A stretch of DNA of 44,503 nt from Candidatus Zhuqueibacterota bacterium (GTDB lineage Bacteria > Zhuqueibacterota > Zhuqueibacteria > Oceanimicrobiales > Oceanimicrobiaceae), in NCBI GenBank assembly GCA_029262035.1, contig JAJDAE010000294.1, positions 1 to 44,503 of the forward strand, in the 5' to 3' direction. Positions 3,483-38,441 of the stretch are shown piece by piece. How positions within the stretch are numbered: the stretch's first letter is position 1; each line of letters starts with the position of its first letter. The position numbers were made by a program, and so were the translations under genes. Under the pieces are notes generated by a model. The model was not told the DNA's origin and ran no database searches. It worked only from the letters and a program-made list of their open reading frames with translations.

Positions 3483-3488
3483 TTAACG

Positions 3489-6752: not shown

Positions 6753-6768
6753 CGAAGTGACTGCTGGT

Positions 6769-6796: not shown

Positions 6797-6836
6797 AATA
6801 TTTGACTATTTAGCTTAACCGAATAGAGGTAGAATC

Positions 6837-11743: not shown

Positions 11744-11744
11744 T

Positions 11745-12554: not shown

Positions 12555-12562
12555 AGGAAAAC

Positions 12563-13849: not shown

Positions 13850-13858
13850 GGGAAGAAG

Positions 13859-14821: not shown

Positions 14822-16071
14822 TAAATATAAAACGAACCGGCATTGTAATTGAACCGAACAGCAAACGCGTGTTACTCCGAACCTTCACTCCGGGGGATGA
14901 AGTGCGTGCACAAAGTCTAATTGCTCGTATTTCCACTTTGACCGAAACTGAAGTAACAGATCATCTGCAAAATATCAACCAAGAATTTTCGCACCGCCAT
15001 TCACATTTAAAAGACTTCTTTTTATCTCGATTCGAGGCCGTACAAAAATTTCTACCAACAGCCGCCATTACCAGCGCGGGTAAGCAACAATTACTCGGCG
15101 CTTGCTTTTCGATGGAATATTCAGTGGAGTCTGCGGCACTCTTTAATCCGTCAATGGTTTGGCATCCGGACCAATCCCATCTCGCAGATGGTACACGCAG
15201 ATTTATTGTAAGCCTGCGTGCAACCGGAGAGGGCCACATATCCTCCATTGTTTTCACAACCGGAACCATTGATTCCAATTGTAAGATTAAATTAGACAAA
15301 CGCAGTTCCTTTGTTTCGGGAGCAGCAAGTTTAACAATGTCTGAAACCGGCTACGAGCTTTCATTCGATGATGATGTGCCGCTTGGTGAGCGAGTTATTT
15401 TTCCAAAGACTGAAGACGAGTCGAACGGTATCGAGGACGCCCGGTTTGTTGAATTCAAGGATGAAAACGGCTCGACAACCTACTTCGCGACCTACACAGC
15501 TTATGACGGTCATGAGATTTATCCGAAGCTTTTAAAGACGCAGGATTTCATACACTTCCAAAGTATAAAGTTGCGCGGTCAGGATGCTCAAAATAAAGGC
15601 ATGGCTTTGTTTCCTCGAAAGATTGCTGACCAATATGCCATGATTGGCCGCCAGGATGGTGAAAACCTGTATATTATGTTTTCGGATTCTCTTTCTAAAT
15701 GGAAGAAGAAACAATTGCTTTTGAAACCGACACACGTTTGGGAATCCGTACAATTAGGCAATTGTGGTTCCCCCATCGAAACTAAAGCAGGCTGGTTGTT
15801 GTTGACGCATGGTGTAGGTGCAATGCGCGTATACAGCATAGGCGCTATTTTACTCGATCTGAACGACCCTTGCAAAGTTATCGGGCACCTGCAACAACCG
15901 TTGCTTTCTGCAAACCAAAAGGAAAGAGAGGGTTACGTGCCAAACGTGGTTTATAGTTGCGGCGGGCAAATTCATCAAAACAAACTAATTTTGCCGTACG
16001 CCATGTCTGACACTGCCTGTAGTTTTGCAATTGTTGATTTAAATGATTTGCTCAGTCAATTAACCCTTTAA
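14818..16071 (+). CDS. GH130 family enzyme 2, longer subgroup with N-terminal extension
   Basis: This is a 417-residue GH130 protein of a longer subgroup. An approximately 95-residue helical N-terminal extension comes first (VLLRTFTPGDEVRAQSLIAR, with a HRHSHLKDFF segment). The propeller then begins with EYSVESAALFNPSMVWHPDQ, RFIVSLRATGEGHISSIVF and NGIEDARFVEF, the last carrying the equivalent of the catalytic Asp (IED). The late region has LGNCGSPIETKAGWLLLTHGV and SIGAILLDLNDP. The extension and the 'RATGEGHISS' block mark a subgroup different from the preceding GH130, so the pair probably acts on different linkages or chain lengths. The ATG overlaps the preceding TGA by 4 nt, indicating coupled translation. 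No signal peptide is seen, so it acts in the cytoplasm on imported oligosaccharide. Confidence 0.85.
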   Translation: MINIKRTGIVIEPNSKRVLLRTFTPGDEVRAQSLIARISTLTETEVTDHLQNINQEFSHRHSHLKDFFLSRFEAVQKFLPTAAITSAGKQQLLGACFSMEYSVESAALFNPSMVWHPDQSHLADGTRRFIVSLRATGEGHISSIVFTTGTIDSNCKIKLDKRSSFVSGAASLTMSETGYELSFDDDVPLGERVIFPKTEDESNGIEDARFVEFKDENGSTTYFATYTAYDGHEIYPKLLKTQDFIHFQSIKLRGQDAQNKGMALFPRKIADQYAMIGRQDGENLYIMFSDSLSKWKKKQLLLKPTHVWESVQLGNCGSPIETKAGWLLLTHGVGAMRVYSIGAILLDLNDPCKVIGHLQQPLLSANQKEREGYVPNVVYSCGGQIHQNKLILPYAMSDTACSFAIVDLNDLLSQLTL

Positions 16072-16072
16072 A

Positions 16073-19000: not shown

Positions 19001-19198
19001 CATGTTCAGCTTCAAATTTATAATGTACTCGGACAGCATGTGCGAACTCTGGTAAATCAACGTCACGTTCCAGGGACAAAACAGGTTATGTGGGATGGCC
19101 GTGATGAAACCGGAATACACGCACCAAGCGGCATTTATATTTATAAACTCAAAGTGAATAGTTTTGTGGAAATCCGAAAAATGTTACTTCTCAAATAA
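16073..19198 (+). CDS. Secreted 1041-residue multidomain protein: helical catalytic-like domain, two PKD/Ig-like repeats, LamG, T9SS sorting domain
   Basis: The N-terminus is a signal peptide (LCLKLSLIFSFQALGIAQQ). Residues of about 30-540 form a large helix-rich domain with many W, Y and acidic residues (DWWYETMPNIFFFQLN; WDVPAMNYRAWSFP; PEPEAAGAIAWILYHSF; WGAIVGTWGGYDVSG), resembling an (alpha/alpha)6 toroid glycosidase or lyase. I cannot match it to a CAZy family. Two similar Ig/PKD repeats follow (about 563-642 and 648-735; TTLFCTAEDRDDLELTYNW and TILTCFAHDEDGDSLSYSW), then a LamG/concanavalin-like domain (about 743-935) with YFDGEDDAVQV. A T9SS type A domain ends the protein (NYPNPFNPHT, IYNVLGQHVRTL, SGIYIYKL, KMLLLK). 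The ATG lies 1 nt after the GH130 stop; a second ATG at 16079 is possible. It is a candidate surface enzyme for the initial attack on the polymer. Confidence 0.75.
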   Translation: MTMFVRLCLKLSLIFSFQALGIAQQITIPRIELMPNQPSPYEMRNWKQVAAGFDSLVFDLTRTGQYLPLIWKTSNTVNYPEHGSFGIETIVGSPRQQFSEAITVLPSVISASLVGIDKSAQNNENWVLQCEEYFNRRPEENIYLNHPVAQSGEDWWYETMPNIFFFQLNALYPHTGHFDEQLETIAGQWLSAVKAMGGSDTPWDVPAMNYRAWSFPTMRPLNSGVPEPEAAGAIAWILYHSFKQTGNENYLKSAEWALEFLNSRVSNPSYELQLPYGVYIAAKMNAELGTEYNIAKMVNWCFDVGPLRSWGAIVGTWGGYDVSGLIGEVSTNDYAFLMNGFERVGALVPMTRYDDRFSRATAKWVLNLANASRLFYPNYLPPQNQDSEEWSFVYDPASYIGHEAIRKNQYNQSPYATGDAVSGGWGYTNLALYGSAHVGILGGIIDTTNVPMILKLDLLKTDFYREKAYPTFLLFNPYSQTKAVQVDVGSEPKDLYDVVSNTFLARAVAGSTEVSIAPDVVIQLVLAPAGGSVSFELNKMLIDSIYVDYNAGQTVENFPPRIKSLAASQKSIFIGQTTTLFCTAEDRDDLELTYNWKATGGQITGESDVIDWQAPDTAGVYTIRCTAFDDGGEADTRTVSVTVINNHLPVIDKIVAEPAIIDVNGSTILTCFAHDEDGDSLSYSWYDQQDELFAMGAQLNWQAPSLPGFYKMTCLVEDEDGGQAEDSVFVTVGRQAAFFPFNGNAQDDGPFENNGTIKGAVPAADRFGNPANAFYFDGEDDAVQVANHPTLNFQHEISINFWMNMPQYLPRESFPISHGSWQNRWKVSIIPTKKMRWTINTESGIADLDSKNIIFPDSTYNVHVSYDMSIMKMYLNGELSSSKSWTGQLKQTTLDLTIGQMLPGNNQYNFEGILDDLHIYNRVLTDEEIRDLFDALPTTAQTSPKITLPKQNQLYTNYPNPFNPHTIIRYDLRQAAHVQLQIYNVLGQHVRTLVNQRHVPGTKQVMWDGRDETGIHAPSGIYIYKLKVNSFVEIRKMLLLK

Positions 19199-19204
19199 AG
19201 GACC

Positions 19205-21664
19205 ATGATGAGAGAAAGATTTGAACTTAACCAAAATTGGAGATTTAAAGTTCATACCAATTCTGTTGAAAATGCTGAACTGCCTGAAAACATCAAATCA
19301 CAGGAATGGCTGTCAGCCACCGTGCCCGGCACCATTCATACAGACCTGTTAAATCATGATTTGATTGCCGATCCATTTTATCGCGATAACGAGCGCAACG
19401 TGCAATGGGTGGACAAATTTAATTGGGACTACTGCACAACATTTTCCTTGCCAGCTTCCTTTTCAGTTAAACACGAAATCCGCCTGATCGCTGAAGGTCT
19501 CGACACAGTAGCGGATATTTTTCTAAATGGTAAAAAAATCGCTCATACTGAAAATATGCATATCCGCCATAGTTTTGAAATCAAATCACTCTTAAACGCA
19601 GGTGAAAACGAACTAAAAATTCTCTTTTTCTCACCCACAACTCACGCAAAACAGCTTGAGAAAAAATATGGTCAGCTCTGCAATACTCACGAACCCCACC
19701 GGCTGTACATGCGAAAAGCGCAATATTCTTTCGGCTGGGATTGGGGAGCCGTGCTGGCTACATCCGGTATCTGGAAAGCCATTTATCTGGAAGGCGTGAA
19801 CGAAACACCTATCGACCAATTTCAAATTGAGACACAACTTGCTGAAAATTTACAATCTGCCCGGGTTATGGTCGCAGTTGCAACCCAGCGATTCGGCGAA
19901 GAGTCAACAGATTGCAGCATAGAAGTTGAGATAGATGGTATTACCAAAAACATTAACCTGCGGGATGAAACGGCTGAATGCAAATTTAAAATAAACCATC
20001 CCAGACTCTGGTGGCCAGCCGGTTTTGGTGAACCCTGTTTGTACACCGCAAAATTAAGGCTGTACGCAGATGGCGTCCTGCAGGATGAACAGGAAAAACG
20101 GTTTGGTATCCGTAAACTGGAGTTGGTTCGCAATAAAGATAAGGCGGGTGAGTCCTTTTACTTTAAGATAAACAACCAACCGGTTTTCTGCAAAGGGACT
20201 AACTGGATTCCAGCGGACAGTTTCCTACCGCGAATAAATGATGAAAAATATCGGGACTTGCTCGGCATGGCCAGAGATGCAAACATGAATATGATTCGCA
20301 TTTGGGGCGGCGGCATCTACGAGCAAGATATCTTCTACGATTTGTGTGATGAACTCGGATTGATGGTCTGGCAGGATTTTATGTTTGCCTGCGGCGCTTA
20401 TCCTGAGTATGAGGCCTTCCAGGAAAACGTCAAACAAGAAGCCGAATTCGTCATCAATCGTTTGCGGCACCACCCCAGCATTGTTTTATGGTGCGGCAAT
20501 AATGAAAATGAATGGATTTGGCACGACTTTGCCGGTAACAGCTACGCCCGTATGCCGGGTCTGACGTTATTTCGTGATTTAATTGCGGGAATTTGCGCAA
20601 GGCACGATCCGAGCCGGCCGTATTGGCAAAGCACACCTTTTGGCGGGAACGACCCAAATTCCGAACTGCAAGGCAACCGCCATCAGTGGGATATATGGAG
20701 TCGGTGGCAGGATTTTACTATGGTTGAAAATGACCGAAGCCGATTCATTTCCGAATTCGGGTTTCAGGGGCCGGCAAATTTATCAACCTTTCAAAAGATT
20801 ACTTTGCCTGAAGACCGGCATCCGCAAAGCGAAGTCATGGAATTTCATAACAAACAGATCGAGGGGCCTGAACGGATTTACCGTTTCCTTGCAGGGCATG
20901 TCATCATGCCGGTTTCTTTTGAAGACTATATTTATAAAGGACAAATGCTGCAAGGGGAAGCACTGAAAACCTGCCTTGAACATTGGAGGCGAAATAAATT
21001 TCACACTGCCGGTAGCATTATTTGGCAGTTAAATGATTGCTGGCCGGTGACCAGTTGGGCGATCATCGATAGCGATTTGCTGCCAAAGGCAGCCTATTTT
21101 TACGTTCGCCGGGCTTTTTCACCCCTATTGGTTTCGTTCAAACAAGTCGACAATACTGTTGAGATATGGCTTACAAATGACCGCTTAGATGACGTGTCCG
21201 ATATTTCTCTAAGTTTGCAATGTCTCGATTTTGATGGCAAAAATATTTTCTCAGAAACACTTCCGGTCCGCACAGCCGCCAACAGTTCGTCCGTCGTACA
21301 CAAAACTGATCTAACCAGTCTGGAAATTAATTCTGTGAATTGTTATTTGAAAGCACAAATTCAAGTGGCAGAAAATGTCGTTTCAGAAAATCGTTTCTTC
21401 TTCAAACGGTTTAAGCATCTTGATTTGCTTGAAACTGAAATTCAGCAAACGCTTGAACAAATTGATGACCAGCAATTTACGCTATATTTGCAGTCAAAAG
21501 CGTTTGTGAAAAACGTTCAGGTGGAAACAGATTTAAAATGTGCGCTTTCGGATAATTTTTTTGATTTGGACGCCAATTATAGAAAATCGGTGACTATCCA
21601 CTTAAAGGAGAGCAAAAGCTGTAATTTGGCTGATTTTGGAATCAGGCATCTTTTAACTCATTAG
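19205..21664 (+). CDS. Beta-mannosidase, glycoside hydrolase family 2
   Basis: This is an 819-residue cytosolic-type enzyme that releases mannose from the non-reducing ends of beta-mannosides. The N-terminal sugar-binding domain begins FELNQNWRF and SATVPGTIHTDLL, with IADPFYRDNERNVQWVDKF, the typical beta-mannosidase opening. YSFGWDWGAVLATSGIWKAI follows. In the TIM barrel, the acid/base Glu is in WCGNNENEW (about residue 434) and the nucleophile Glu in ISEFGFQ (about 517); WQLNDCWPVTSWAIID also fits. Two adjacent ATGs exist. AAGGA is only 2 nt from the first and 5 nt from the second (19208), so initiation one codon later is likely. It sits 6 nt after the secreted multidomain gene and closes the + strand cluster. 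No clear terminator is visible in the 48-nt convergent gap. Confidence 0.93.
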   Translation: MMRERFELNQNWRFKVHTNSVENAELPENIKSQEWLSATVPGTIHTDLLNHDLIADPFYRDNERNVQWVDKFNWDYCTTFSLPASFSVKHEIRLIAEGLDTVADIFLNGKKIAHTENMHIRHSFEIKSLLNAGENELKILFFSPTTHAKQLEKKYGQLCNTHEPHRLYMRKAQYSFGWDWGAVLATSGIWKAIYLEGVNETPIDQFQIETQLAENLQSARVMVAVATQRFGEESTDCSIEVEIDGITKNINLRDETAECKFKINHPRLWWPAGFGEPCLYTAKLRLYADGVLQDEQEKRFGIRKLELVRNKDKAGESFYFKINNQPVFCKGTNWIPADSFLPRINDEKYRDLLGMARDANMNMIRIWGGGIYEQDIFYDLCDELGLMVWQDFMFACGAYPEYEAFQENVKQEAEFVINRLRHHPSIVLWCGNNENEWIWHDFAGNSYARMPGLTLFRDLIAGICARHDPSRPYWQSTPFGGNDPNSELQGNRHQWDIWSRWQDFTMVENDRSRFISEFGFQGPANLSTFQKITLPEDRHPQSEVMEFHNKQIEGPERIYRFLAGHVIMPVSFEDYIYKGQMLQGEALKTCLEHWRRNKFHTAGSIIWQLNDCWPVTSWAIIDSDLLPKAAYFYVRRAFSPLLVSFKQVDNTVEIWLTNDRLDDVSDISLSLQCLDFDGKNIFSETLPVRTAANSSSVVHKTDLTSLEINSVNCYLKAQIQVAENVVSENRFFFKRFKHLDLLETEIQQTLEQIDDQQFTLYLQSKAFVKNVQVETDLKCALSDNFFDLDANYRKSVTIHLKESKSCNLADFGIRHLLTH

Positions 21665-21712
21665 AGTTAACTTTCATCCATCGTGTTGTGTAGTTTTGGG
21701 ATATCTATTTTA

Positions 21713-22813
21713 TTATATTATGAATTTTTCGCTGTCTTTTTCAAAAAAATGTGCTTTTGACATATTTATGACAAGGTCAATGGCTTCCCCGCTACCAGTA
21801 CTTAATTCAGCACCAAGCCGTGCAATAATTGAATTGCTGCCGGTTGTGGCATACAGATAGCTTTCATTTCCCATCGGTTCAATTACCTCAACAGAGAGTT
21901 GGGTGGTGGCTTTTTCTTCGAGCAGTATTGGCGTATCATTCTCATGAATATCTTCAGGCCGAATACCAAATACAACTTGTTTATCCACATAACGAGAAAG
22001 GGTTGATTCGTGCTTTTGTGGCACCTTAACTTTTAACCCGCCTTCTTCAAACCAGAGACCGCCATTTTGATGAATTCTACCTTCAAGTAAATTCATAGAT
22101 GGGCTGCCAATGAATCCTGCGACAAATTTATTTTGTGGCTTATTATACAAGTTAAGCGGCGTATCCACCTGCTGAATAATACCATCTTTCATCACGACAA
22201 TACGATCGCCCATCGTCATGGCCTCAACCTGATCATGCGTAACATAAATCATGGTCGTTTGCAGTTTTTGATGCAACTTGGAAATTTCAGTACGCATCTG
22301 CACACGTAGCTTGGCGTCGAGATTTGACAGTGGTTCATCAAAGAGAAAAACTTGTGGATTTCTCACAATGGCCCGGCCTACAGCCACTCGCTGCTGTTGT
22401 CCACCGGAAAGAGCTTTTGGTTTACGTTGCAACAACTCACCAATACCCAGTATTTTAGATGCTCGCTCCACTCTGTTTTGGATCTCTTGTTTTGAAAATT
22501 TCCGCAACTTCAGGCCGAAAGCAAGATTGTCATAAACAGTCATATGCGGATATAGTGCGTAGTTCTGAAACACCATGGCGATGTCCCGATCTTTAGGTGG
22601 CACATCGTTCACCAATCGGTCTCCGATAAAAAGGCTGCCCTCGCTGATGTCTTCCAGGCCAGCAATCATGCGCAACGTTGTAGACTTACCGCAGCCGGAT
22701 GGACCAACAAGTACAACAAACTCTTTGTCAGCAATCTCAATATTAAAATCACGAACAGCTGGTACTTCCGAGGAATAATATTTGTATACATGTTCAAGCA
22801 CAACACGAGTCAT
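21713..22813 (-). CDS. Sugar ABC transporter ATP-binding protein, MalK/UgpC/MsmX type
   Basis: This is a 366-residue ATPase. Walker A GPSGCGKST is near residue 37, then the Q-loop (FQNYALYPHMTVYDN), the signature LSGGQQQR, Walker B QVFLFDEPLSNLD and the H-loop TMIYVTHDQ. The C-terminal extension contains the TOBE/regulatory fold (GIRPEDIHEN near residue 290), as in MalK/MsmX proteins that energise CUT1 sugar importers. It is encoded opposite to and converging on the glycan cluster, about 9 kb from the two permeases that lack their own ATPase. It therefore most likely serves them and may be shared with other importers. It has its own promoter candidate upstream (22848-22876), so it can be expressed independently of the cluster. 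Confidence 0.93.
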   Translation of the reverse strand: MTRVVLEHVYKYYSSEVPAVRDFNIEIADKEFVVLVGPSGCGKSTTLRMIAGLEDISEGSLFIGDRLVNDVPPKDRDIAMVFQNYALYPHMTVYDNLAFGLKLRKFSKQEIQNRVERASKILGIGELLQRKPKALSGGQQQRVAVGRAIVRNPQVFLFDEPLSNLDAKLRVQMRTEISKLHQKLQTTMIYVTHDQVEAMTMGDRIVVMKDGIIQQVDTPLNLYNKPQNKFVAGFIGSPSMNLLEGRIHQNGGLWFEEGGLKVKVPQKHESTLSRYVDKQVVFGIRPEDIHENDTPILLEEKATTQLSVEVIEPMGNESYLYATTGSNSIIARLGAELSTGSGEAIDLVINMSKAHFFEKDSEKFII

Positions 22814-26694: not shown

Positions 26695-27339
26695 CTAAAA
26701 AGAAAAGCAAAGATATTTAATTGTTCTACCCTCCTCTAAATGCATCTCTTCATATTTGGTACGAATTTCTGTTATACTGCTATCGAGTCCGTTATCTTCA
26801 TAAATATTACTTGAACTCACGTGCACTTTAAGGTTCATCTCTTTAACAATTTCATAACACCTTTCGTAAAATACCAGGTCATCAGTTTTCAAATGAACTT
26901 TCCCCGCTTTTTTAAGAATTGATTGATAAACTTCTAAGAAATGAGGCGATGTAACTCGTTTCCTTACACCCCTCTTTTTAGGAAAAGGGTCGGGAAATGG
27001 AATCCAGATTTCGGCGATGGAGTGCTCACCAAAATAACTCGTTAATTCTTTGGCAGAAGCTCTTAAAAAAGCCACGTTCTGAATTTCTTGTTTTAAGACG
27101 GTATTGGCTCCCGTCCAAATTCGATCACCTTTAACATCCACACCGATGAAATTTTTATTCGGAAATCTTTCAGCAAGTCTAATTGAATAATCTCCCCGGC
27201 CACATCCGACTTCAAGTACTACTTCGTTTTCATTTTCAAAATATTCAGCAACCCAAGATTGTCTGTCTTCCGGGATCTCGCAAAAAACATTCGGCAATTT
27301 ATCTACTAATGAAAATTTTTTTAACTTTTTTCTCGCCAT
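26695..27339 (-). CDS. trmB: tRNA (guanine-N7-)-methyltransferase
   Basis: This 214-residue SAM-dependent enzyme makes m7G46 in tRNA variable loops. The motifs match TrmB: VLEVGCGRGDYSIRLAERF (SAM-binding loop), NFIGVDVKGDRIW, EIWIPFPDPFPKKRGVRKR (the characteristic PDPxxKxxxxxRR-like block) and GKVHLKTDD. The start at 27339 (MARKKLKKF) is chosen because GGAAG sits 4 nt before it; an in-frame TTG at 27357 would add six residues without a ribosome site. It converges on the GlnE gene with only 32 nt between stops and no evident terminator. Confidence 0.92.
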   Translation of the reverse strand: MARKKLKKFSLVDKLPNVFCEIPEDRQSWVAEYFENENEVVLEVGCGRGDYSIRLAERFPNKNFIGVDVKGDRIWTGANTVLKQEIQNVAFLRASAKELTSYFGEHSIAEIWIPFPDPFPKKRGVRKRVTSPHFLEVYQSILKKAGKVHLKTDDLVFYERCYEIVKEMNLKVHVSSSNIYEDNGLDSSITEIRTKYEEMHLEEGRTIKYLCFSF

Positions 27340-27714
27340 TACACTTCCAATCAGCAAAGCTATTAATTAAGGGTTAAAGTTAAAAAAAACAGTAAATAAA
27401 ACAAATTGAATATAAATCAATTTACCTTCTGATTTTATACCAACTTATACCCCGTAATTGGTTCTTTCCTTTTCGAACATTACCCTGACAAATATAAACC
27501 ACTTATTTTTCATTTCCATTGACAGGTCTTAAAACCAAATGGATACGCTATATTGACCTCCATGCGCAACGGTCTAAAAATGCGAACATTCTGCCACTTA
27601 ATTGGCGATTTGTTGAATTATAGTTATCATGAATTACAGGTAATTGAGAATTTATTATTTTCATGATATCATACCAATCGACTAACTATTTTCCAAAAGA
27701 CAGTAAATTTTATC
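27340..27714. other. Intergenic stretch of about 375 bp with no supported gene
   Basis: This AT-rich stretch lies between trmB (-) and the tRNA promoter (+). It contains a TTGACA box at 27519-27524 without a convincing -10, and an inverted TCATGA-containing repeat (27626-27632 with 27661-27667). Reading frames are short (34 and 38 codons) without ribosome sites. It must hold the trmB promoter, but I could not single one out. Confidence 0.5.
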
Positions 27715-28297: not shown

Positions 28298-30040
28298 ATG
28301 CAAATTTCGATTTTAGTCTTAACCAACGACGCCTCCATCTGGAAGGATTTTCTTCAAATAGATCATGCATTTTTGAATAAACAGAGAATCATGAATCTGA
28401 AGAAAGTATTCGAACTCGTTCAAAAAAAACGATTTGATTCACTATTCATAGATATGGAATTGTTGGACGGTAATGCAGCAAATACGGTTTATCAATTGCA
28501 ACAGAGCAATTTTGAAATACCTATTGTTATGATTCTTAGTGAAGAAGATGAAGCGCAGGCCATTGAAATGCAAAAGGCAGGTGCACAAGATTTTATCTTG
28601 AAATCAGAAATTGAAGAAAAAATTGTACTCAGAACAATTAGATATGCGACAAACAAAAATCAATTACTAAATCAGTTACAGAAATCACGAGACCTTGAAC
28701 ACCACCTTGCTTACCATGACTTTTTAACCGGATTACCAAACAGATTGCTCTTTCATGATAGACTTAACCAGGCTGTAAAAAAAGGTAAACGCTCAAAAGA
28801 CGAGGTTGCACTATTTTTCCTAGATCTCGATGGATTTAAAAAAATAAACGATACTCTGGGTCACAGCTTTGGCGATGAATTACTCAAAATGGTGGCATCA
28901 CGACTAAAAAGAGCCATTCGTGAAAGCGATACCGTGTCCAGGTTTGGGGGAGATGAATTTACTGTCTTACTCCAAAATGTTAATTCCGTCCCAGATACAA
29001 AAACCATCGCAAAAAAAATCTTAGAGACTTTATCAAAGCCTTTTACAATTAATGAGCGAGAACTCTACATTACAACGAGTATCGGTATTAGTCTGTTTCC
29101 AAGGGATGCCAGTGACTCCGAAACCCTTGTAAAGAAAGCGGATGTTGCAATGTATCGAGCCAAAGCAGCCGGAAAAAATCTCTATATGCATTACACATTT
29201 TCAATGGACGAATCTCTTTTTGAAAGCCTTACTCTTGAAAATAGTTTACGCAAAGCCATCAAGCAGGATGAATTGGTAGTTTACTACCAGCCACAAATTG
29301 AAGTAAACACAGGAAAGATATATGGACTGGAAGCCCTGGTAAGATGGCAGCATCCTGATTACGGTATTATCCCCCCGGATAAGTTTATTACACTTGCAGA
29401 AGAAATAGGTCTGATAACAGAAATAGACGAATGGGTACTAAGAAGGGCTTGTGAACAAACTAAAATATGGCATTCTAATGGGTTTAAGAATTTAAAAATC
29501 TCAGTAAATTTGTCCGGAAAAAACTTTAAACAAAAAAATCTTTTTAAAAGATTCGACAGAATCCTAAAAGATACAGAGTTCCCGGCAGAACATTTGTGGG
29601 TTGAAATTACAGAAAAAAGTATTGTTTCAGATATTGAGCATACGATTGAAATTCTAAACCAGCTCAAAAGCCTAGGATTAAAAATAGCGCTAGATGATTT
29701 TGGTATTGCTTACTCCTCACTCAATTACCTTAAACGCCTTCCAATAGATATGCTGAAAGTCGATCGGTCATTTGTGGGTGGTATACCGGTAGATCGCGAT
29801 GATAGTGCCATTTCGACAGCAATTGTAGTTTTGGCAAAAAGTATGATGTTACAAGTAATTGCCGAGGGTGTTGAAACAAAAGACCAGCTTATGTTTTTTA
29901 AAGCACTTAATTGTGAAGGCATGCAGGGGTATTTGTTCGGTAAACCCCAAACAGCGGCTTCTACTACCAACCTACTTAAATCAAATCTTAATTTTACAAG
30001 TCATTTTAACCTCTCGCCGCAACCTACCGTAGTTAAATGA
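28298..30040 (+). CDS. Response regulator with atypical receiver, GGDEF and EAL domains
   Basis: This is a 580-residue cytosolic protein. The receiver (about 1-120) keeps the phospho-acceptor Asp (LFIDMELLDG) and the Lys (FILKSE), but the acidic pair at strand 1 is replaced (VLTNDAS in place of the usual V-E-D-N), so phosphorylation is doubtful. A GGDEF domain (about 145-300) has an intact active site (SRFGGDEFTV) with PNRLLFHDRL. The EAL domain (about 318-565) has YGLEALVRWQHP and the catalytic-type blocks WVEITEK, LDDFGIAYSSLNYLK and AEGVETKDQL. Such hybrids make and/or degrade cyclic di-GMP. The stop overlaps the start of the following kinase by 4 nt, so they are co-translated. No Shine-Dalgarno is evident upstream. 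Confidence 0.9.
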   Translation: MQISILVLTNDASIWKDFLQIDHAFLNKQRIMNLKKVFELVQKKRFDSLFIDMELLDGNAANTVYQLQQSNFEIPIVMILSEEDEAQAIEMQKAGAQDFILKSEIEEKIVLRTIRYATNKNQLLNQLQKSRDLEHHLAYHDFLTGLPNRLLFHDRLNQAVKKGKRSKDEVALFFLDLDGFKKINDTLGHSFGDELLKMVASRLKRAIRESDTVSRFGGDEFTVLLQNVNSVPDTKTIAKKILETLSKPFTINERELYITTSIGISLFPRDASDSETLVKKADVAMYRAKAAGKNLYMHYTFSMDESLFESLTLENSLRKAIKQDELVVYYQPQIEVNTGKIYGLEALVRWQHPDYGIIPPDKFITLAEEIGLITEIDEWVLRRACEQTKIWHSNGFKNLKISVNLSGKNFKQKNLFKRFDRILKDTEFPAEHLWVEITEKSIVSDIEHTIEILNQLKSLGLKIALDDFGIAYSSLNYLKRLPIDMLKVDRSFVGGIPVDRDDSAISTAIVVLAKSMMLQVIAEGVETKDQLMFFKALNCEGMQGYLFGKPQTAASTTNLLKSNLNFTSHFNLSPQPTVVK

Positions 30041-32310
30041 TCGCCGAAAAAAATAAAATATTTATCATAGGGATATTTACCATCACCCTGACCTTCACCT
30101 TGGCTATTTCACTTAATTATAGAATACCGAGAGAGATATTACTTGCTTATAACTGGTTCACTTTGGCAATAACTCTTTTTATCAGTTCTTTTTTCCTTAT
30201 TAATTACATCGTAAAAAAAAACAGGCTATTTTCTACAATGAGCCTTTTCTTTTCGTGTATCGTTATCTTGGAAATAATATTCCATCTAACTCCGAAGGAA
30301 AAATTCGGCCTATTCAAAAGCTTTGCGATGAACCAACAATTAGTTCTCGCATACCTTTCTGCAGCAATCTGTTTGATCGCTTCGCAGGACACAATTATTA
30401 AAACTAAACCGAAAATTTCATATTCCTTTTTAATGCTTACTTTGGGTATAATTAGCTGTTCTTTTTTAATTAATGAGGTCGGACTTACTTTTTTTAAGTA
30501 TAACTGGCTACCAATTTTACCCCTCACACTTTTACCCATCGCCTTTATTCGCATTAAGAGAAGTAAATATTGGGCAGATTATTTCTTACAGTATTGGTTT
30601 TTGCTGTTTATAGGGATTTTATTCTCAGCCCAATTACTCATTGGACTGTCAAGTATTTTAAATAATAACCAGCTTCTATACTCTGCCGATTTTTTTAAAG
30701 GTATCTCTTATATCGTTATTTTGTGTGGCATCTTTTTTCAATTTTATAAAACGCTCGGGAAATCAGAGCTTCAGGCAAATAATTTATTTCTAGCGACGGA
30801 AGAAGTGCGGCAGGAAATTGAGGAAAGAGAATGGACCGAAGAACTACTTAATGAGTCCAGGTTATTTTCAGAAAGTATTGTTGAGTCAATCAATGAGCCT
30901 TTGCTTGTTTTAGACTCTGAGCTAAAAATTATAAAAACCAATCACTCATTTTATACATTGTTTAATTTAAATCCAAAACAAACGTTAAATCGCTTTCTAA
31001 ACGAAATTGGTAAGGGTGAGTGGAACAATCAGGAGCTTTTAAGCAATTTAAAATCAGTTATTAACGACGATGTACATATTAAGAACTATGAAACTTCTAT
31101 TAAACTCCAGCATAAATCTAAGACGATTTTGTTAAATGCCCGAAGGATAGCCCAGAAAGATATTAAGACAAATTTACTTATTTTAACAATAAATGATATT
31201 ACCGATTTAAAGAAAGCTCAGGAAAATGCACGGCTTTTGGCAAGAGGTGTAGAATCTGCTTTAGAAGCAATCATTTTGACTGACCACAACGGTTCTATCA
31301 ACTACGTGAACCCCGCTTATCTCAATTTAACAAGTTTCACTTTTACAGAATTAAAAGGGAAAAAACTTAACACATTAATTAGCGATTTAAATGAAATAGA
31401 TTTTAAAAATTTGCTTTTATCCAATCAATCCGAAAATAAAATTTGGACAGGAGAAGCCACAGGTTATAAGAAAAACGGCTCTGCGTATGAAGTTTACATG
31501 ACAATAGCCCCGGTCTATGATGAGTTTCAAAAACTTGAGGGATTTGTGTCAATACAAAATGATATAACTGAACTTAAGAAAGCTAAAGAAGATTTGGCGC
31601 AACGGGCGACAGAGTTAGCACGCTCAAATGCCGAATTAGAACAGTTTGCCTATGTCGCATCTCACGATTTACAAGAACCATTACGAATGGTATCAAGTTT
31701 TTGCCAGCTACTCAAAAAACGCTATTATGACAAATTGGATAAAGATGCAAATGAATTCATAGATTTCGCAGTCGATGGTGCCAAAAGAATGCAAACACTC
31801 ATCAGCGATCTTCTGCTTTATTCGCGTGTAGGAACCCGAGGCAAACCATTTGCTAAAACAGACTGCAACGACATAATAAATAAAGTTTTAAAAAATCTAC
31901 AAATTTCAATTGAAGATTCAGATGCGACAATAAACATAAAAGATTTACCGACAACGGTAGCTGATGAAACTCAACTCGTTCAGTTATTTCAAAATATAAT
32001 CGGGAATGCTATTAAATTCAGAAATTCAAAAAGCCCTGAAATATCAGTTGCTTCAAAAAGAAAAAACGGTCAATGGCAATTTTCAATAAAGGATAATGGT
32101 ATTGGCATAGCTCCAAAATATCAAAACAAAATCTTTACAATTTTCCAAAGGCTGGAAAATAAAGAAAATTACCCGGGAACCGGTATCGGTCTCGCAGTAT
32201 GCAAAAAAATCATAGAGCGTCATCGTGGTAAAATTTGGGTAAAATCAGAGCCGGGAAAAGGCTGTGCTTTTTATTTCACACTACCTGCCTTAGAAGGAAT
32301 AAATCAATGA
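30037..32310 (+). CDS. Membrane sensor histidine kinase with multi-pass N-terminus and two PAS domains
   Basis: This is a 757-residue kinase. The first 240 residues contain about eight hydrophobic segments without a large periplasmic loop, like an integral-membrane sensory (MASE-type) domain. PAS 1 (about 280-395; NEPLLVLDSELKIIKTNHSF) and PAS 2 (about 400-525; ALEAIILTDHNGSINYVNPAYL) follow, each ending in an 'xxDITxLKKA' linker. The HisKA domain carries the phospho-acceptor His in YVASHDLQEPLRM, the sequence style of phytochrome-like (Cph1-type) kinases. The ATPase domain has N, G1 and G2 boxes (FQNIIGNAIKF, DNGIGIAPKYQ, GTGIGLAVCKKI). Genes on both sides overlap by 4 nt. It probably phosphorylates the Rcp1-type receiver encoded next. 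The signal is unknown, and no cofactor site is obvious in the PAS domains. Confidence 0.9.
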   Translation: MIAEKNKIFIIGIFTITLTFTLAISLNYRIPREILLAYNWFTLAITLFISSFFLINYIVKKNRLFSTMSLFFSCIVILEIIFHLTPKEKFGLFKSFAMNQQLVLAYLSAAICLIASQDTIIKTKPKISYSFLMLTLGIISCSFLINEVGLTFFKYNWLPILPLTLLPIAFIRIKRSKYWADYFLQYWFLLFIGILFSAQLLIGLSSILNNNQLLYSADFFKGISYIVILCGIFFQFYKTLGKSELQANNLFLATEEVRQEIEEREWTEELLNESRLFSESIVESINEPLLVLDSELKIIKTNHSFYTLFNLNPKQTLNRFLNEIGKGEWNNQELLSNLKSVINDDVHIKNYETSIKLQHKSKTILLNARRIAQKDIKTNLLILTINDITDLKKAQENARLLARGVESALEAIILTDHNGSINYVNPAYLNLTSFTFTELKGKKLNTLISDLNEIDFKNLLLSNQSENKIWTGEATGYKKNGSAYEVYMTIAPVYDEFQKLEGFVSIQNDITELKKAKEDLAQRATELARSNAELEQFAYVASHDLQEPLRMVSSFCQLLKKRYYDKLDKDANEFIDFAVDGAKRMQTLISDLLLYSRVGTRGKPFAKTDCNDIINKVLKNLQISIEDSDATINIKDLPTTVADETQLVQLFQNIIGNAIKFRNSKSPEISVASKRKNGQWQFSIKDNGIGIAPKYQNKIFTIFQRLENKENYPGTGIGLAVCKKIIERHRGKIWVKSEPGKGCAFYFTLPALEGINQ

Positions 32311-32753
32311 GCGTCGATTCTTTTGAACGTCCAATAGAAATTCTTATGGCCGAGGATAATCCGGGAGATATCCGTCTTACCCGTGAAGCCTTAAAAGATG
32401 GGAAAGTTAGTAATTCTCTGAATGTTGTAAATAATGGTTCTGATGCATTGGCCTATTTACGAAAACAACCACCGTTCGAAAACATGAGCCGTCCGGATCT
32501 AATTTTATTAGATTTAAATCTTCCTAAAATCAACGGCATCGAAGTATTGCAGGAAATCAAAACTGATGAAACTCTAAAACTGATACCGGTTGTAATATTG
32601 ACAACATCAAAATCAGAGCAGGATATCACTTCTTCATATCAAAACCATGCAAATTGCTATATCACAAAACCCGTTGACTTAGATCAATTTATGAGCGCAA
32701 TTAATGCGATAGATAATTTCTGGCTTTCAATTGTAAGATTACCTACGGAATAA
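32307..32753 (+). CDS. Rcp1-type single-domain response regulator
   Basis: This 148-residue receiver has no output domain. ATG 32307 overlaps the kinase stop by 4 nt and begins just before the first strand; a longer in-frame start at 32235 lies within the kinase ATPase domain and is rejected. The active site is complete: acidic pair in LMAEDNPGD, acceptor Asp in LILLDLNLPKING, Thr in VVILTTS, and Lys in CYITKPVDLDQF. The style (AEDNPGDIRLTREAL; DETLKLIPVVILTTS) is that of Rcp1 receivers paired with phytochrome-like kinases. It probably passes the phosphate or docks onto the adjacent cyclic di-GMP protein. Confidence 0.92.
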   Translation: MSVDSFERPIEILMAEDNPGDIRLTREALKDGKVSNSLNVVNNGSDALAYLRKQPPFENMSRPDLILLDLNLPKINGIEVLQEIKTDETLKLIPVVILTTSKSEQDITSSYQNHANCYITKPVDLDQFMSAINAIDNFWLSIVRLPTE

Positions 32754-32755
32754 AT

Positions 32756-34513
32756 ATGCAAAACCACATCACAAAAATACTTTTAGTAGAAGACAATAGT
32801 GGCGACGCCTACCTTATCAGGGAAGCTCTACATACCACAAGAAATCTAAATTTTGAATTAACTCAGGCCGATAATCTTAGTGAAACGCTAAGAATTTTGA
32901 GCAAACACGAGATTGACATTGTGCTACTGGATCTGTCTCTTCCTGATAGCAGTGGCTTTTCAACTTTCTCACACGTGCATTCTCACGCAACCCAAATCCC
33001 CATTATCGTTTTAACGGGATCAGATGACGACGAACTCGCGGCTCGAACGATGCAAAGCGGTGCTCAGGATTATTTGATAAAGGGCACCTTTACTGAAGAC
33101 CTGCTCGCCCGCTCAATTAGATATTCCATTGAACGCCACAATCTTCTGATAGAAATGGAAAAAGCCAGGCTTCACGAACAACATCTGGCATACCATGATG
33201 TTCTCACATCGCTGCCTAATCGTCTTTTATTCTACGACCGTCTGGAGCAAGCACTTATCCACGCAAAACGTTATTCCGGCATGCTGGGAGTTTTGTTTTT
33301 AGATTTAGATGGCTTCAAACAAATCAATGATACCAAAGGTCATAGTCATGGTGATAGGCTTTTACAAATTGTTGCACAAAGGCTAAAAAAGAATGTACGT
33401 GAAAGCGATACAATTGCAAGACTTGGAGGAGATGAATTTATAATTTTACTAAAGGGTATAACCACGATTGATGATGTATTTAAAGTTGGGATGAAGGTGC
33501 TTGAAGTAACCCCCAAACCACTCTTACTCGATAACGAAAGCATAAATATTACATGTAGTATTGGCGCAAGCATCTTCCCATGTGATGGTGATACAACAGA
33601 AGACTTGATAAAAAAAGCTGACTTTGCAATGTATAAGGCCAAGTCCTTAGGCAAGAATACTTTTCACCTTTATAATTCAGAAGTCGATAAAAAAAACTCT
33701 AAACGCCAATCACTTGAAAACAAATTACGACATGCTATTGAAAGTGATCATTTACTACTTTATTTTCAGCCACAGGTCTCTTTGAGAACAGGGGAAATCT
33801 CAGGACTAGAGGCGCTGGTAAGATGGGATGATCCGGAACTAGGTCTTATTTTACCCTCAGAGTTTATACCCCTTGCTGAAGAGACAGGTCTGATTCTACC
33901 GCTTGGTGAATGGGTTTTGAAATCGGCTTGCACGCAAAACAAAATATGGCAAACTGCAGGGTATAAACAACTTCCAATTTCAATTAATCTTTCTGCACGG
34001 CAGTTTCGCGAAATAAGTATTGTTCAAACTATTCATAACGCATTGCAGGAAGTGGAACTAGAACCAAAATTTCTTAAAATAGAAATAACGGAAACCCATG
34101 TTATGCAAGACGTAGATTATACGATTTCTACACTTGAGATTCTTCGGGAAATGGGAATACACGTTGCCTTAGATGATTTTGGAACCGGGTACTCTTCCTT
34201 AAATTACTTAAAACGCTTACCAATTGACCAGTTAAAAATAGATAAATCCTTTATAAACGACATTCCGGAAAACCTGCACGATGCAACAATATTGACTGCA
34301 ATTTCGACCATGGCACAAACTCTTGGCATTAAAGTGGTTGCTGAAGGTGTTGAAAATGAGAGCCAATTGCACTTCCTCCAATCAATAGAGTGCGATACAA
34401 TACAAGGCTACTATTTTAGTCGACCACTCCCCACCCACGAATTACTAAAATTGATTGATTCAGAAAAAAAACTAATATTGAACCAGCCCAAGGAAGAAAT
34501 AGTAGTTGTCTAG
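32756..34513 (+). CDS. Response regulator with REC, GGDEF and EAL domains
   Basis: This 585-residue paralogue of the protein at 28298-30040 begins 2 nt after the Rcp1-type gene. Its receiver is canonical (KILLVEDNSGDAYLIREAL; IVLLDLSLPDSSG; IVLTGSDDDE; DYLIKGTF), so it can accept phosphate. The GGDEF motif is intact (ARLGGDEFIIL), with NRLLFYDRLEQAL. The EAL domain has SGLEALVRWDDPE, LKIEITETHVM, ALDDFGTGYSSLNYLK and AEGVENESQL, all expected for an active phosphodiesterase. The net direction of cyclic di-GMP turnover cannot be predicted. This is the last gene of the four-gene signalling unit. Confidence 0.93.
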   Translation: MQNHITKILLVEDNSGDAYLIREALHTTRNLNFELTQADNLSETLRILSKHEIDIVLLDLSLPDSSGFSTFSHVHSHATQIPIIVLTGSDDDELAARTMQSGAQDYLIKGTFTEDLLARSIRYSIERHNLLIEMEKARLHEQHLAYHDVLTSLPNRLLFYDRLEQALIHAKRYSGMLGVLFLDLDGFKQINDTKGHSHGDRLLQIVAQRLKKNVRESDTIARLGGDEFIILLKGITTIDDVFKVGMKVLEVTPKPLLLDNESINITCSIGASIFPCDGDTTEDLIKKADFAMYKAKSLGKNTFHLYNSEVDKKNSKRQSLENKLRHAIESDHLLLYFQPQVSLRTGEISGLEALVRWDDPELGLILPSEFIPLAEETGLILPLGEWVLKSACTQNKIWQTAGYKQLPISINLSARQFREISIVQTIHNALQEVELEPKFLKIEITETHVMQDVDYTISTLEILREMGIHVALDDFGTGYSSLNYLKRLPIDQLKIDKSFINDIPENLHDATILTAISTMAQTLGIKVVAEGVENESQLHFLQSIECDTIQGYYFSRPLPTHELLKLIDSEKKLILNQPKEEIVVV

Positions 34514-34674: not shown

Positions 34675-35784
34675 CTACTTTGCTACTAAACTTTCAAAAA
34701 TCTGATCATATTTTTTTATAATCTGCAGCCAGTCAAATTTTTGAACAACACCTCTCAACTCATTAGCGCCATTATATGTTCGATCTGCAATCAATGTGTG
34801 CATTCTTTCAACAAATTCCTCAAAATCTGTATACAAATATTTTCCATGCAAACTTTCCGGAATCAAGCCCGGATAAGCAAGACGATTGGGGAGCACCGGA
34901 TGGCAGCCACAATAAATTGCTTCTACAACACTTCCTCCAAAAAAATCTTGAATTGAGGTAACCGGCAAAATATCAGAACGCCATAACCATTTTGCATAGT
35001 CAGAAAAATGCTCTACTTCGCCATATTGAATTATTCGGTCACCAAGAAATTCCTTTGCATAAATAAACTCTTTGGGCTGTCTGCTAAAACATTCTCCCAA
35101 AATAGCCAAATTGAAATCTAAATCCCGTTCGGCTAAGATAAACAATGCTTGAAAAAAATCGCTGGGATTTTTATCAAATTCCCAACGGTGGTTCCACAGC
35201 AAAAGAGGGGGAGCCTCTTCTGTGGTAACATTTTTATGGGTATCAAACTGAGCAAGGTCCATGCCTAAAGACAAAACTTGTCCCTTATCCCTTATTAAAT
35301 CAATCATCTCAAGATTGCGATAATCGGGGAAATGGTTAAGAAAAAGGCCAAGAGCTTTGAGGTAACTTTGCATATGGAATTGTGAATTAAAGAGAACCAA
35401 ATCGGCAACAAGTGTGCTGGTAAAATTTATAAATCCGTAATGTTTATCCCTATTTTGGATAACATCACGATCACCGGGCGACCAGGGATAACTCAATTGA
35501 TTTTCGTGAAAATATACAGCCGTTGGAATGTCTGAAGTTTTATTTCTTGTTAGAGACAAAAAGGTTGAAAAGTCCAGCATGTCTGTGGCTAAAATGAGAT
35601 CTGGCCGTTCTCCTTTTTCATTGTAAATTTTTGCCAATGTTACGGCGCCACCATGCATTCTCCATTTCCAGAAATTACCAGGGAGCCCCAAGATTTCTAT
35701 CTCATGCTCACTATGACGTTGATAACCTTCAGCCCAAAATTTATGTGAACCTGTAAGGTACGGTTCAAGAATTAGAATTTTCAA
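34675..35784 (-). CDS. tRNA-queuosine alpha-mannosyltransferase-like glycosyltransferase (GTDC1/QTMAN family)
   Basis: This 369-residue GT-B glycosyltransferase has the family's distinctive N-terminal DUF3524-type domain: ILILEPYLTGSHKFWAEGY, LPGNFWKWRMHGGAVTLA, ATDMLDFSTFLSLTR, VYFHENQLSYPW, and DKHYGFINFTSTLVADLVLF followed by NSQFHMQSYL. These blocks resemble animal GTDC1, shown to mannosylate queuosine in tRNA-Asp. The C-terminal half carries nucleotide-sugar-binding features (LLWNHRWEFDKNPSDFFQAL; DFFGGSVVEAIYCGCHPVLP, the E-x7-type motif). It starts with TTG at 35784, since no in-frame ATG lies between an upstream TAA and the conserved start. In bacteria the acceptor is not established to my knowledge, so tRNA mannosylation is an inference. 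No queuosine synthesis gene is in the window. Confidence 0.8.
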   Translation of the reverse strand: MKILILEPYLTGSHKFWAEGYQRHSEHEIEILGLPGNFWKWRMHGGAVTLAKIYNEKGERPDLILATDMLDFSTFLSLTRNKTSDIPTAVYFHENQLSYPWSPGDRDVIQNRDKHYGFINFTSTLVADLVLFNSQFHMQSYLKALGLFLNHFPDYRNLEMIDLIRDKGQVLSLGMDLAQFDTHKNVTTEEAPPLLLWNHRWEFDKNPSDFFQALFILAERDLDFNLAILGECFSRQPKEFIYAKEFLGDRIIQYGEVEHFSDYAKWLWRSDILPVTSIQDFFGGSVVEAIYCGCHPVLPNRLAYPGLIPESLHGKYLYTDFEEFVERMHTLIADRTYNGANELRGVVQKFDWLQIIKKYDQIFESLVAK

Positions 35785-35995: not shown

Positions 35996-36196
35996 CTATC
36001 CTTTTGTTACGAGAGTTGCGTGAAGACCCTTTGGACCGGCCTCACTTTCAAACTGTACCTCGTCGCCCTCATTTAAAGTCTTGTATCCCTCCGACTCAAT
36101 CGCTTTATAATGCACAAAAATATCATCGCCATCCTCCCTGACAATGAAACCATAACCTTTAGCATTATTAAACCATTTAACTGTACCAGTTTCCAT
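35996..36196 (-). CDS. Cold-shock domain protein, CspA family
   Basis: This 66-residue single cold-shock domain has both RNA-binding motifs: [15 protein letters not shown] (RNP1, KGYGFI) and [10 protein letters not shown] (RNP2). It ends [11 protein letters not shown]. The family binds single-stranded RNA and DNA, melts mRNA structure and often acts in cold or stationary-phase adaptation. AGAGG lies 5 nt before the ATG. It is monocistronic, with its own promoter candidate and a strong terminator. Confidence 0.96.
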
Positions 36197-36249: not shown

Positions 36250-36440
36250 AAATTACACAACTAGTAAACATTGCATACCACTCCATACAATTTACATTTA
36301 TAAATTTTTGGTAGACCCAAGAAATTTGAGTTATGTTAAATACATTGAAAGGCGTTTAAAGAAGTGTACCTTACTTAATTCTTTTAACGATATAGATTAG
36401 AGAGATAAAATGCAAGGATTTTTTTGATTGCACATTTCAA

Positions 36441-36469
36441 TTTACTTTTTTTGGAAAAATTTTTATATT
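36441..36469 (+). promoter_or_regulatory. Possible promoter giving a leaderless esterase transcript
   Basis: TTTACT (36441-36446) and TATATT (36464-36469) are 17 bp apart. The expected start of transcription falls on or within 2 nt of the ATG at 36478, and no Shine-Dalgarno lies between. Confidence 0.35.
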
Positions 36470-36477
36470 CACGTATT

Positions 36478-37248
36478 ATGAAATTAGAAAGCACTTTTTA
36501 CGGTAGCGCAGCAAATAGTATAGTGATTTTGCATGGTCTGCTAGGTGCTTCTACAAACTGGACAACCATTGCAAAAAGACTTGGTGAAGAATATAGCGTC
36601 ATCGTACCATCACTTAGAAATCATGGGAATTCGCCACATGGGAGCCATAGTATTGAACTCATGCGCAATGATGTTTATGAACTATTAGAGGGTGAAGAGG
36701 TTGAAAAGACCTTATTAATTGGTCACTCAATGGGAGGTATGGCAGCGATGTCTTTTGCGTTAGCCTATCCGGAGAAACTAATGGGGTTAATAATAATTGA
36801 TATTACACCTCAAGCCGGCTCATCCCAAATGAGTCTTATTTTTGATAATTTACTCGGGCTTGAACTTAACAAAATCAAAAACAAGGACGACGCTGACGCT
36901 AAATTAAGTGAATCTATAAATGACAAAGCCGTGCGTCAATTTTTACTACAAAATTTAAAACAAAAGCAAGGTAACTACTTCTGGAGATGTAACCTTGAAG
37001 AATTAAACAGCTTCATCCGTGATAAAAATACCTACATACTTGATTCAAACCGTCAGTACTCCGGGCCGGTATTATTTATCGGAGGGGGGAAATCAGACTA
37101 CAGAATAGACCAAAAAGAAGCTCTCATAAAAAATCATTTCCCCAATTATAAATTAGAGATGATCCCGGATGCGGGACATTGGGTTCACTTTGAAGCAAGA
37201 GAGTCCTTCCTGGAAATGGTTGAGAAATTTATTACAACTTACTGTTAA
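36478..37248 (+). CDS. Alpha/beta hydrolase, YbfF-like esterase
   Basis: This is a 256-residue cytosolic hydrolase. ATG 36478 begins KLESTFYGSAANSIVILHGL, the normal family start; an in-frame TTG at 36424 adds an unrelated tail. The oxyanion-hole segment is ILHGLLGASTNWTTIA, the nucleophile elbow GHSMGGMAA, and the catalytic His lies in DAGHWVHFEARESF. PSLRNHGNSPH is typical of the YbfF/ABHD11-like acyl-ester hydrolases. The substrate is unknown. It converges on thiI, with only 2 nt between the two stop codons. Confidence 0.9.
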   Translation: MKLESTFYGSAANSIVILHGLLGASTNWTTIAKRLGEEYSVIVPSLRNHGNSPHGSHSIELMRNDVYELLEGEEVEKTLLIGHSMGGMAAMSFALAYPEKLMGLIIIDITPQAGSSQMSLIFDNLLGLELNKIKNKDDADAKLSESINDKAVRQFLLQNLKQKQGNYFWRCNLEELNSFIRDKNTYILDSNRQYSGPVLFIGGGKSDYRIDQKEALIKNHFPNYKLEMIPDAGHWVHFEARESFLEMVEKFITTYC

Positions 37249-37250
37249 CG

Positions 37251-38441
37251 CTAAAATTTTGATGCTTCAATACTTGCAGCTCTAAATTCTTTTATCTCAG
37301 ATTGTTCAATAGCCCTATCCAACAAAACATCCATTTCAAGGCTCTTTTCAGCAAGATATAATTCCTTTGGGCTGGCTTTGGTTGCAGGGTTCTTTGGTAC
37401 GAACAATGAACAGCAATCCTCGTAGGGTTGAATAGAAATATCAAAAGTCCCAATTTCTTTTGCACGCTCAATAATTTCATCTTTATCAAAGCCGGCCAAT
37501 GGCCGCAAAATTGGCAAACCGGTTACTTCGGCAACCACTCGAATGTTACTGATTGTCTGTGAAGCCACTTGCCCAACATTTTCTCCTGTAACCAACGCTT
37601 TTGCATTTTCAATCTTTGCAATTCTTTCTGAGAGTCGAACCATATATCTCCGATACAACAGAACACGAAGTGCAGACGGGGCTTTCGCCATTATTTCCTT
37701 TTGTATGTCAATAAAAGGGATAAAATAGGCCTTTGCATACAATTGGAACCGTGTAAGCTGTTCAATAATCTTTTCCGTATTCTCTTGAGATGCAGGGTTG
37801 GTGTAGGGCTGACTGTGAAAATGGGCATAGATTAATTTCACGCCTCTTTTCAAAATCATATAAGAAGAAACAGGTGAATCTATTCCTGAAGAAAGCAAAC
37901 TCACTGCTGCTTCATTCGTGCCAACGGGGAGACCACCCAGACCTTTAACTTTTTCTAAATATAGTAAAGCACCCTTTTCTGCAATCTCAATAAAAAGGGT
38001 CTCATCCGAATTTCCGAGGTCAACTTTTTTCCCGGACTTTTCCACAATAAATGCGCCAACTTGTTGGTTAATTTGAACCGATGTCAACGGATATTCTTTT
38101 TGCGCCCGTTTCGTTCTGACTTTAAAAGAACCAAAAGTTAATTCTTTAAGAAGCTTCCACCCTTCCTCTTTCAGAGTCTCGATATCTTTATTTACAAATA
38201 GCCCAAAACTAAAATGGGAGACACCGAAAACAGTAGCAAGAGATTTTTGAACCTCTAAAGTGTCACATGAAGCAGATAGATAAATTACTATTCGACCACG
38301 CAGACGGTTAATTTCCCTAAAACTTTTACGAGGACAAGCTCTTCTAATATTATTGACCAGTTGTTTTTCAAAATAAACTCTGTTATTTCCTTTAAGAGCT
38401 ATTTCGCTATAATGCACAACTATAATTTTCATTACTGCCAT
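37251..38441 (-). CDS. thiI: tRNA 4-thiouridine synthetase ThiI, short form without rhodanese domain
   Basis: This is a 396-residue protein. An N-terminal ferredoxin-like/THUMP region (IVVHYSEIALKGNNRVYFEK; FKVRTKRAQKEYPLTS) is followed by a PP-loop adenylation domain with LLSSGIDSPVSSYMI near residue 185. The canonical SGG of the PP-loop reads SSG here. YEDCCSLFVPKNPATK near residue 342 holds the conserved cysteine region. ThiI adenylates U8 of tRNA and transfers sulfur to it, and in some organisms it also supplies sulfur for thiazole synthesis. There is no C-terminal rhodanese domain, as in Gram-positive ThiI, so a persulfide donor acts directly. It starts 18 nt after the TPR-like gene, so the two are probably one operon. 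ATG 38441 follows AGGA closely, and ATG 38432 is an alternative start. Confidence 0.92.
   Translation of the reverse strand: MAVMKIIVVHYSEIALKGNNRVYFEKQLVNNIRRACPRKSFREINRLRGRIVIYLSASCDTLEVQKSLATVFGVSHFSFGLFVNKDIETLKEEGWKLLKELTFGSFKVRTKRAQKEYPLTSVQINQQVGAFIVEKSGKKVDLGNSDETLFIEIAEKGALLYLEKVKGLGGLPVGTNEAAVSLLSSGIDSPVSSYMILKRGVKLIYAHFHSQPYTNPASQENTEKIIEQLTRFQLYAKAYFIPFIDIQKEIMAKAPSALRVLLYRRYMVRLSERIAKIENAKALVTGENVGQVASQTISNIRVVAEVTGLPILRPLAGFDKDEIIERAKEIGTFDISIQPYEDCCSLFVPKNPATKASPKELYLAEKSLEMDVLLDRAIEQSEIKEFRAASIEASKF

Follow-up and report, generated by a model that had tools for sequence, protein, structure and literature searches.

A gene in the window (the whole 44,503-nucleotide stretch of DNA analysed here, from a Candidatus Zhuqueibacterota bacterium) encodes what is, judged by its domains (QTMAN_N followed by a GT4-type C-terminal domain), a full-length member of the family of animal tRNA-queuosine mannosyltransferase (QTMAN, or GTDC1). 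The family is widespread in bacteria, and in Chloroflexota we do not find it in genomes without queuosine genes, an absence suggesting that queuosine with an added sugar may extend beyond animals. Direct support comes from family membership, fold, a host genome with TGT, QueA, and QueG, the absence of the family from all 57 sampled Chloroflexota with neither TGT nor QueA, and a tight pairing with one type of TGT, with the pocket GGSLG, in QueA-less Chloroflexota. From these we infer activity, queuosine at position 34 (Q34) in tRNA as the acceptor, mannose as the sugar, tRNA-Asp as the substrate, and any effect on decoding. We give an even chance to a cytosolic retaining GT4/GT-B enzyme that would modify queuosine at tRNA position 34, most likely in tRNA-Asp, by attaching a hexose to its cyclopentenediol, as animal QTMAN does; the hexose would most likely be alpha-mannose donated by GDP-mannose.

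Table 1. Features of the window discussed in the text.
Feature	Coordinates	Strand	Remarks
QTMAN-family glycosyltransferase gene	34675..35784	-	369-codon ORF, TTG start; QTMAN_N 1.3e-58
QTMAN_N domain (PF12038)	35260..35781	-	Pfam; invariant S13 H14, W39KWR42, H93EN.Q96, Y99P100, N133S134
GT4-type C-terminal domain (Glycos_transf_1)	34780..35235	-	Pfam, residues 184-335
Cold-shock protein, upstream neighbour of QTMAN gene	35996..36196	-	CSD 1.5e-27
Alpha/beta hydrolase	36424..37248	+	Pfam; context
ThiI, tRNA uracil 4-sulfurtransferase	37251..38441	-	TIGR00342 3.4e-112; context
TrmB, tRNA m7G46 methyltransferase	26695..27357	-	NF001080 8.3e-66; context

In a Pfam scan, QTMAN_N (titled 'tRNA-queuosine alpha-mannosyltransferase N-terminal' in Pfam) matches residues 2-175 of the protein over the entire profile (1-168 of 168), scoring 198 bits where the cut-off is 25; it presumably forms the acceptor-side Rossmann domain. 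The original prediction singled out four N-terminal blocks, YLTGSHK, WKWRMHGGA, YFHENQLSYPW, and NSQFHMQSYL, as resembling GTDC1/QTMAN. All four are literally present in the translation, and the resemblance is borne out (E 1.3e-58) by comparison with Pfam's curated profile, not with an animal sequence. The C-terminal half exceeds the Pfam cut-offs for Glycos_transf_1 (PF00534, 9.3e-9) and Glyco_trans_1_4 (PF13692, 1.6e-7), and contains W197NHRW201..D204K205 and D280-FFG-x4-E288 (EX7E-like), which we take to fit the GT4 donor-site motifs. Across 21 proteins of the phylum and a wider set of 28, invariant residues include S13 H14, W39KWR42, H93 E94 Q96, and N133 S134 and, in the C-terminal half, W197NHRW201, D204 K205, F282 G283, and R301 L302; N95 is invariant among the 21 and nearly so among the 28. 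No NCBIfam equivalog exceeds its cut-off for this protein, the nearest models, BshA (TIGR03999, 23.8 against 273.7 bits) and EpsE (19.2 against 400 bits), falling far below theirs.

The protein is predicted to adopt a retaining GT-B glycosyltransferase fold (AlphaFold2 from 28 aligned proteins; mean pLDDT 92.8, pTM 0.90), and Foldseek and VIA-align match GT-B/GT4 enzymes over residues 1-369 of the model. VIA-align Z scores reach 32.1 for sucrose-phosphate synthase, 27.2 for PimB' (3oka), and 25.9 for PimA (2gej), the latter two being GDP-mannose enzymes; MshA, BshA, and SenB also appear, as does 9v0l, which is a tetrahydrobiopterin glucosyltransferase (Z 25.9, rmsd 2.9, 307 aligned). The list is a mixture of UDP-sugar and GDP-sugar enzymes, and because all GT4 rows lie this close in fold, the fold does not allow a choice of sugar or acceptor. 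BshA, MshA, PimA, PimB', and other GT4 enzymes have the full-length retaining GT-B fold in common with the predicted model, but share 12-18% identity with the protein in most listed rows, and enzymes of this type are not, as a family, known for the QTMAN_N blocks. A PDB sequence search with the protein alone found no match at E 0.001, and one with the family profile found generic GT4 chains only, over the C-terminal half, and no QTMAN entry.

Between the cold-shock gene and the QTMAN gene lies a GC-rich stem followed by a T-run, recognised by eye (the stem scan missed it on account of a long loop); since these separate the two genes, the QTMAN gene looks monocistronic. Its downstream neighbour is a convergent gene for a GGDEF-EAL response regulator. 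TrmB and ThiI, which the original prediction placed in the same DNA, are indeed encoded in the window (Table 1), but as housekeeping genes they are uninformative on queuosine. Elsewhere in the window, a PAS histidine kinase and two GGDEF-EAL response regulators are encoded in a single run at 28298-34513. Positions 9531-22813 hold ABC sugar-uptake genes (solute-binding protein, permease, and MalK-like ATPase); next to these genes is one for a GH2 enzyme resembling beta-mannosidase (19205-21664), and the region is likely a sugar-use locus. Within 3471-9484, a PorV/PorQ-family gene (6837-7874; NF033709, 7e-63) lies between genes for two long proteins that have no Pfam match (3471-6752 and 7874-9484), with a TonB receptor adjoining.

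A scan of a genome collection confirmed at least 570 of at least 587 candidate stretches as relatives, and 80 loci were kept. The kept loci represent KSB1, Neomarinimicrobiota, Chloroflexota, Balneolota, Bacteroidota (Saprospiraceae and Lewinella relatives), relatives of Desulfuromonas and Geomonas, Verrucomicrobiota, one Planctomycetota, Krumholzibacteriota, and Bacillota; cultured carriers include Geomonas, Balneola, Phaeodactylibacter xiamenensis, and Portibacter marinus. Among the matches listed, metagenome-assembled genomes, with KSB1 prominent, provide the closest named relatives, and the top match, at 57% identity, is labelled Anaerolineae. Of 53 genomes from the gene's own phylum, each at least 90% complete, 28 carry the family, with one full copy per genome and, in G017, an additional fragment at a contig edge; it was found in none of 14 control genomes.

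The phylum holds three clearly different QTMAN subfamilies, one replacing another by family of genomes (loci L012, L014, L016, and L018-L027 compared with L001-L009), and two of the three have long branches, of 1.4-1.6 changes per column. This diversity bears on the most serious alternative, that the enzyme glycosylates Q34 with another sugar, on another hydroxyl, or in another tRNA than animal QTMAN does (for example, a non-mannose hexose, or tRNA-Tyr, -His, or -Asn), and that the bacterial subfamilies may differ among themselves in these respects. Window-type proteins have WKWRMHGGA, YPWSPxDRD, and DFFG where the other subfamilies of the phylum have WKWRLRxSALYFA, YPxP, and ENFG (WKWRMRGAALYLA), so that the differences lie around conserved acceptor-side blocks, together with a 5-residue insertion. 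The subfamilies also replace one another at one copy per genome, and the fold matches mix UDP- and GDP-sugar enzymes. Nevertheless, the QTMAN_N signature blocks are conserved in all subfamilies and no difference among them is tied to specificity, and we regard this alternative as unlikely, though worth serious weight.

The original prediction called for a search of the gene's own genome for tgt and queG or queH. This search finds tgt (510 bits) and queG (386 bits), as well as queA (415 bits), and no QueH; with a TGT pocket, GGLSIG, that is preQ1-like, the host is equipped to put queuosine into tRNA. In this organism a preQ1-type TGT would charge tRNA with preQ1, and QueA and QueG would then make Q. 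Across the 53 genomes of the phylum, tgt is found in 50, queA in 53, queG in 49 (any match; 31 over the cut-off), and QueH in 19. Carriers of the family have queA in 28 of 28 and tgt in 27 of 28 cases, the exception (G045) being 91% complete, and non-carriers have queA in 25 of 25 and tgt in 23 of 25; because queuosine genes are near-universal here, co-occurrence within the phylum is a test without power. Eight genomes (G023, G024, G028-G031, G037, and G038) each have two QueA homologues over the cut-off, the second scoring lower than the canonical one (mostly 305-329 bits; 389-396 in G037 and G038). Among 50 named carriers, picked for spread from the 80 kept loci, 47 have a QueA match (44 over the cut-off), and the QueA search found none in the other three, which belong to other phyla and include at least one partial genome of 1.4 Mb.

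Queuosine is patchy in Chloroflexota, which gives the co-occurrence test power there. In a sample of 300 genomes, drawn evenly and with matches counted at E <= 0.001, the family is present in 38, QueA in 173, and TGT in 239. Carriers make up 10 of 169 genomes with both TGT and QueA, 27 of 70 with TGT alone, 1 of 4 with QueA alone, and none of 57 with neither (hypergeometric probability 1.8e-4); with kinship ignored, Fisher tests give 2.6e-4 for 'TGT or QueA' and 0.002 for TGT. Omitting two weak QTMAN_N matches (G286 and G340, 43 and 48 bits) leaves 8, 27, 1, and 0 carriers in the same four classes. One genome counted as having QueA, G368, has a weak match only (7.8e-44). The original prediction would be undermined by genomes that carry the gene and lack both tgt and queuosine synthesis or salvage; among the 57 Chloroflexota without TGT and QueA no such genome is found, again with kinship ignored, and to that extent it holds up, but the own-phylum comparison adds nothing and three named carriers have no QueA match. 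Two further observations count against an acceptor at Q34: G399 has the family and QueA with no TGT match, and QueA is negatively associated with the family (11 of 38 carriers, 162 of 262 non-carriers). Together with the crossed counts, this association indicates that the family goes with TGT and not with QueA.

Members of the very large GT4 family mostly serve envelope glycans and glycolipids, and an ordinary enzyme of that kind, merely sharing the N-terminal fold, would match the usual role of the family; the two weak QTMAN_N matches may be such envelope-type relatives. The gene surroundings point elsewhere. Among 76 proteins flanking 42 carrier loci, alpha/beta hydrolases lead the Pfam families with 5 occurrences, ahead of gyrase A (4) and ATPase domains (3), and the commonest 25 of 109 families, below which single members could hide, include no glycosyltransferase or polysaccharide export family, which speaks against siting in envelope-glycan clusters; in favour of an envelope role, 2 of the 76 match an NAD-dependent epimerase. 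The neighbourhoods of the 80 loci likewise show no recurrent queuosine gene and no linkage to queuosine genes. What recurs looks like inherited context: a similar alpha/beta hydrolase within 8 kb of the QTMAN-family gene at 13 loci, not counting the window, and a membrane protein at 10, both mostly in Saprospiraceae, and TyrRS and SmpB at 8 each (Neomarinimicrobiota and relatives), names that come partly from reading the sequences, with a Pfam scan for the hydrolase only. The apparently monocistronic gene among housekeeping genes, the failure to find the family in 72,556 plasmids and 50,697 phage records, the 0 of 57 carriers among TGT- and QueA-less Chloroflexota, and the BshA and EpsE scores far below cut-off all argue against an envelope role, which we consider improbable. 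Less probable still is that the acceptor is not tRNA but a small molecule, which could be a free deazapurine or pterin such as queuine or preQ1: the fold matches include small-molecule GT4 enzymes (BshA, MshA, SenB, and 9v0l), but all GT4 folds score alike and a shared fold does not establish function, and a tRNA acceptor accounts better for the dependence on TGT.

The protein resembles animal QTMAN (GTDC1), as assessed through the Pfam profile, not an animal sequence, in having the full QTMAN_N and GT4 C-terminal domains, in a genome that supplies Q34, and in being a soluble single-gene enzyme. It differs in that the bacterial host makes Q itself, that window-type proteins form bacterial subfamilies of their own, and that its sugar and acceptor are predicted. 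QTMAN and QTGAL were reportedly identified by one earlier study. A QTMAN enzyme would be expected to transfer mannose to the allylic 3-hydroxyl of Q34 in tRNA-Asp; published work gives the allylic position (PMC12518689) and GDP-mannose as donor (PMC8654956). Mannosyl- and galactosyl-queuosine are attributed to animals and gluQ to bacteria, as 'only known in bacteria' (PMC12710937). GluQRS (YadB), the glutamyl-queuosine tRNA-Asp synthetase, would be a bacterial precedent for further decoration of Q34, on tRNA-Asp; unlike the window's protein, to which it is unrelated, it resembles an aminoacyl-tRNA synthetase and adds glutamate. The QTMAN_N domain already has its name in Pfam. The literature searched, which includes portions of these three papers, PMC11705514, and PMC11570991, yielded no bacterial manQ and no function for the family in bacteria, and we found no mention of DUF3524 there.

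If bacterial QTMAN homologues make sugar-decorated Q, the modification predates animals or crossed into them. Deleting a single gene in culturable Geomonas or Balneola, for instance, would then allow the effect of the modification on decoding to be studied, and pre-glycosylated Q could come from Q-bearing bacteria. A broader reading, which we advance tentatively and with somewhat less than even confidence, is that glycosyl-queuosine is not an animal invention, that the bacterial family makes it (in KSB1, Neomarinimicrobiota, Chloroflexota, Bacteroidota, Balneolota, Desulfuromonas/Geomonas-type lineages, Verrucomicrobiota, Planctomycetota, and Bacillota), and that QueA-less Chloroflexota have a salvage module of a GGSLG TGT and QTMAN, often with a second TGT-like paralogue. 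This module would take up a queuine-like base and glycosylate it after insertion, in parallel to the animal salvage route.

The main TGT was read in all 70 Chloroflexota with TGT and no QueA. The pocket GGSLG occurs in 29, of which 27 are carriers; put otherwise, it is found in 27 of 27 family-positive and 2 of 43 family-negative genomes (Fisher 2e-17, kinship ignored). No carriers occur among the 32 genomes with GGLAGDE, which fits the queuine rule, the 5 with preQ1-like GG[LV][AS][VIL]G, or the 4 with GDCLG; six TGTs from the 10 carriers that have both TGT and QueA are preQ1-like, as is the TGT of the window's genome. Most GGSLG enzymes have IVHGG, with H at a position where the others (GDCLG types excepted) have Q, and they have DEL in place of DEC. 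QueC exceeds its cut-off in 43 of the 300 genomes, with a single carrier overall (G308) and none of the 27 QueA-less carriers, which therefore look like TGT-only salvagers. The possibility that QTMAN simply tracks queuine salvage was rejected: 32 genomes with the queuine signature have no family member, so queuine salvage alone is no predictor. The published queuine TGT signature is GG[LS][AS]G (PMC11570991), and GGSLG falls outside it, which counts against Q34 as the acceptor; the GGSLG-TGT/QTMAN pairing also flags an apparent salvage route with a substrate that the published pocket rule does not predict. Of the 25 rows from QueA-less Chloroflexota in a 74-protein tree of the family, 23 form one fully supported clade, a different subfamily from that of the window's protein, and because this clade dominates, the pairing amounts to many fewer independent events than the genome count implies.

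Fifteen of the 70 genomes, 14 of them QTMAN carriers, also encode a second, TGT-like paralogue (about 280-320 bits) whose pocket is GGWPLD; the 8 of 15 that were read (L230-L237, for example L232:1968-3086, minus strand) keep TDSGGFQ and FDSA(L/M)PTR. In four QueA-less Chloroflexota (L226-L229), TGT has IVHGG together with the pocket GDCLG and differs in this from both preQ1- and queuine-type enzymes.
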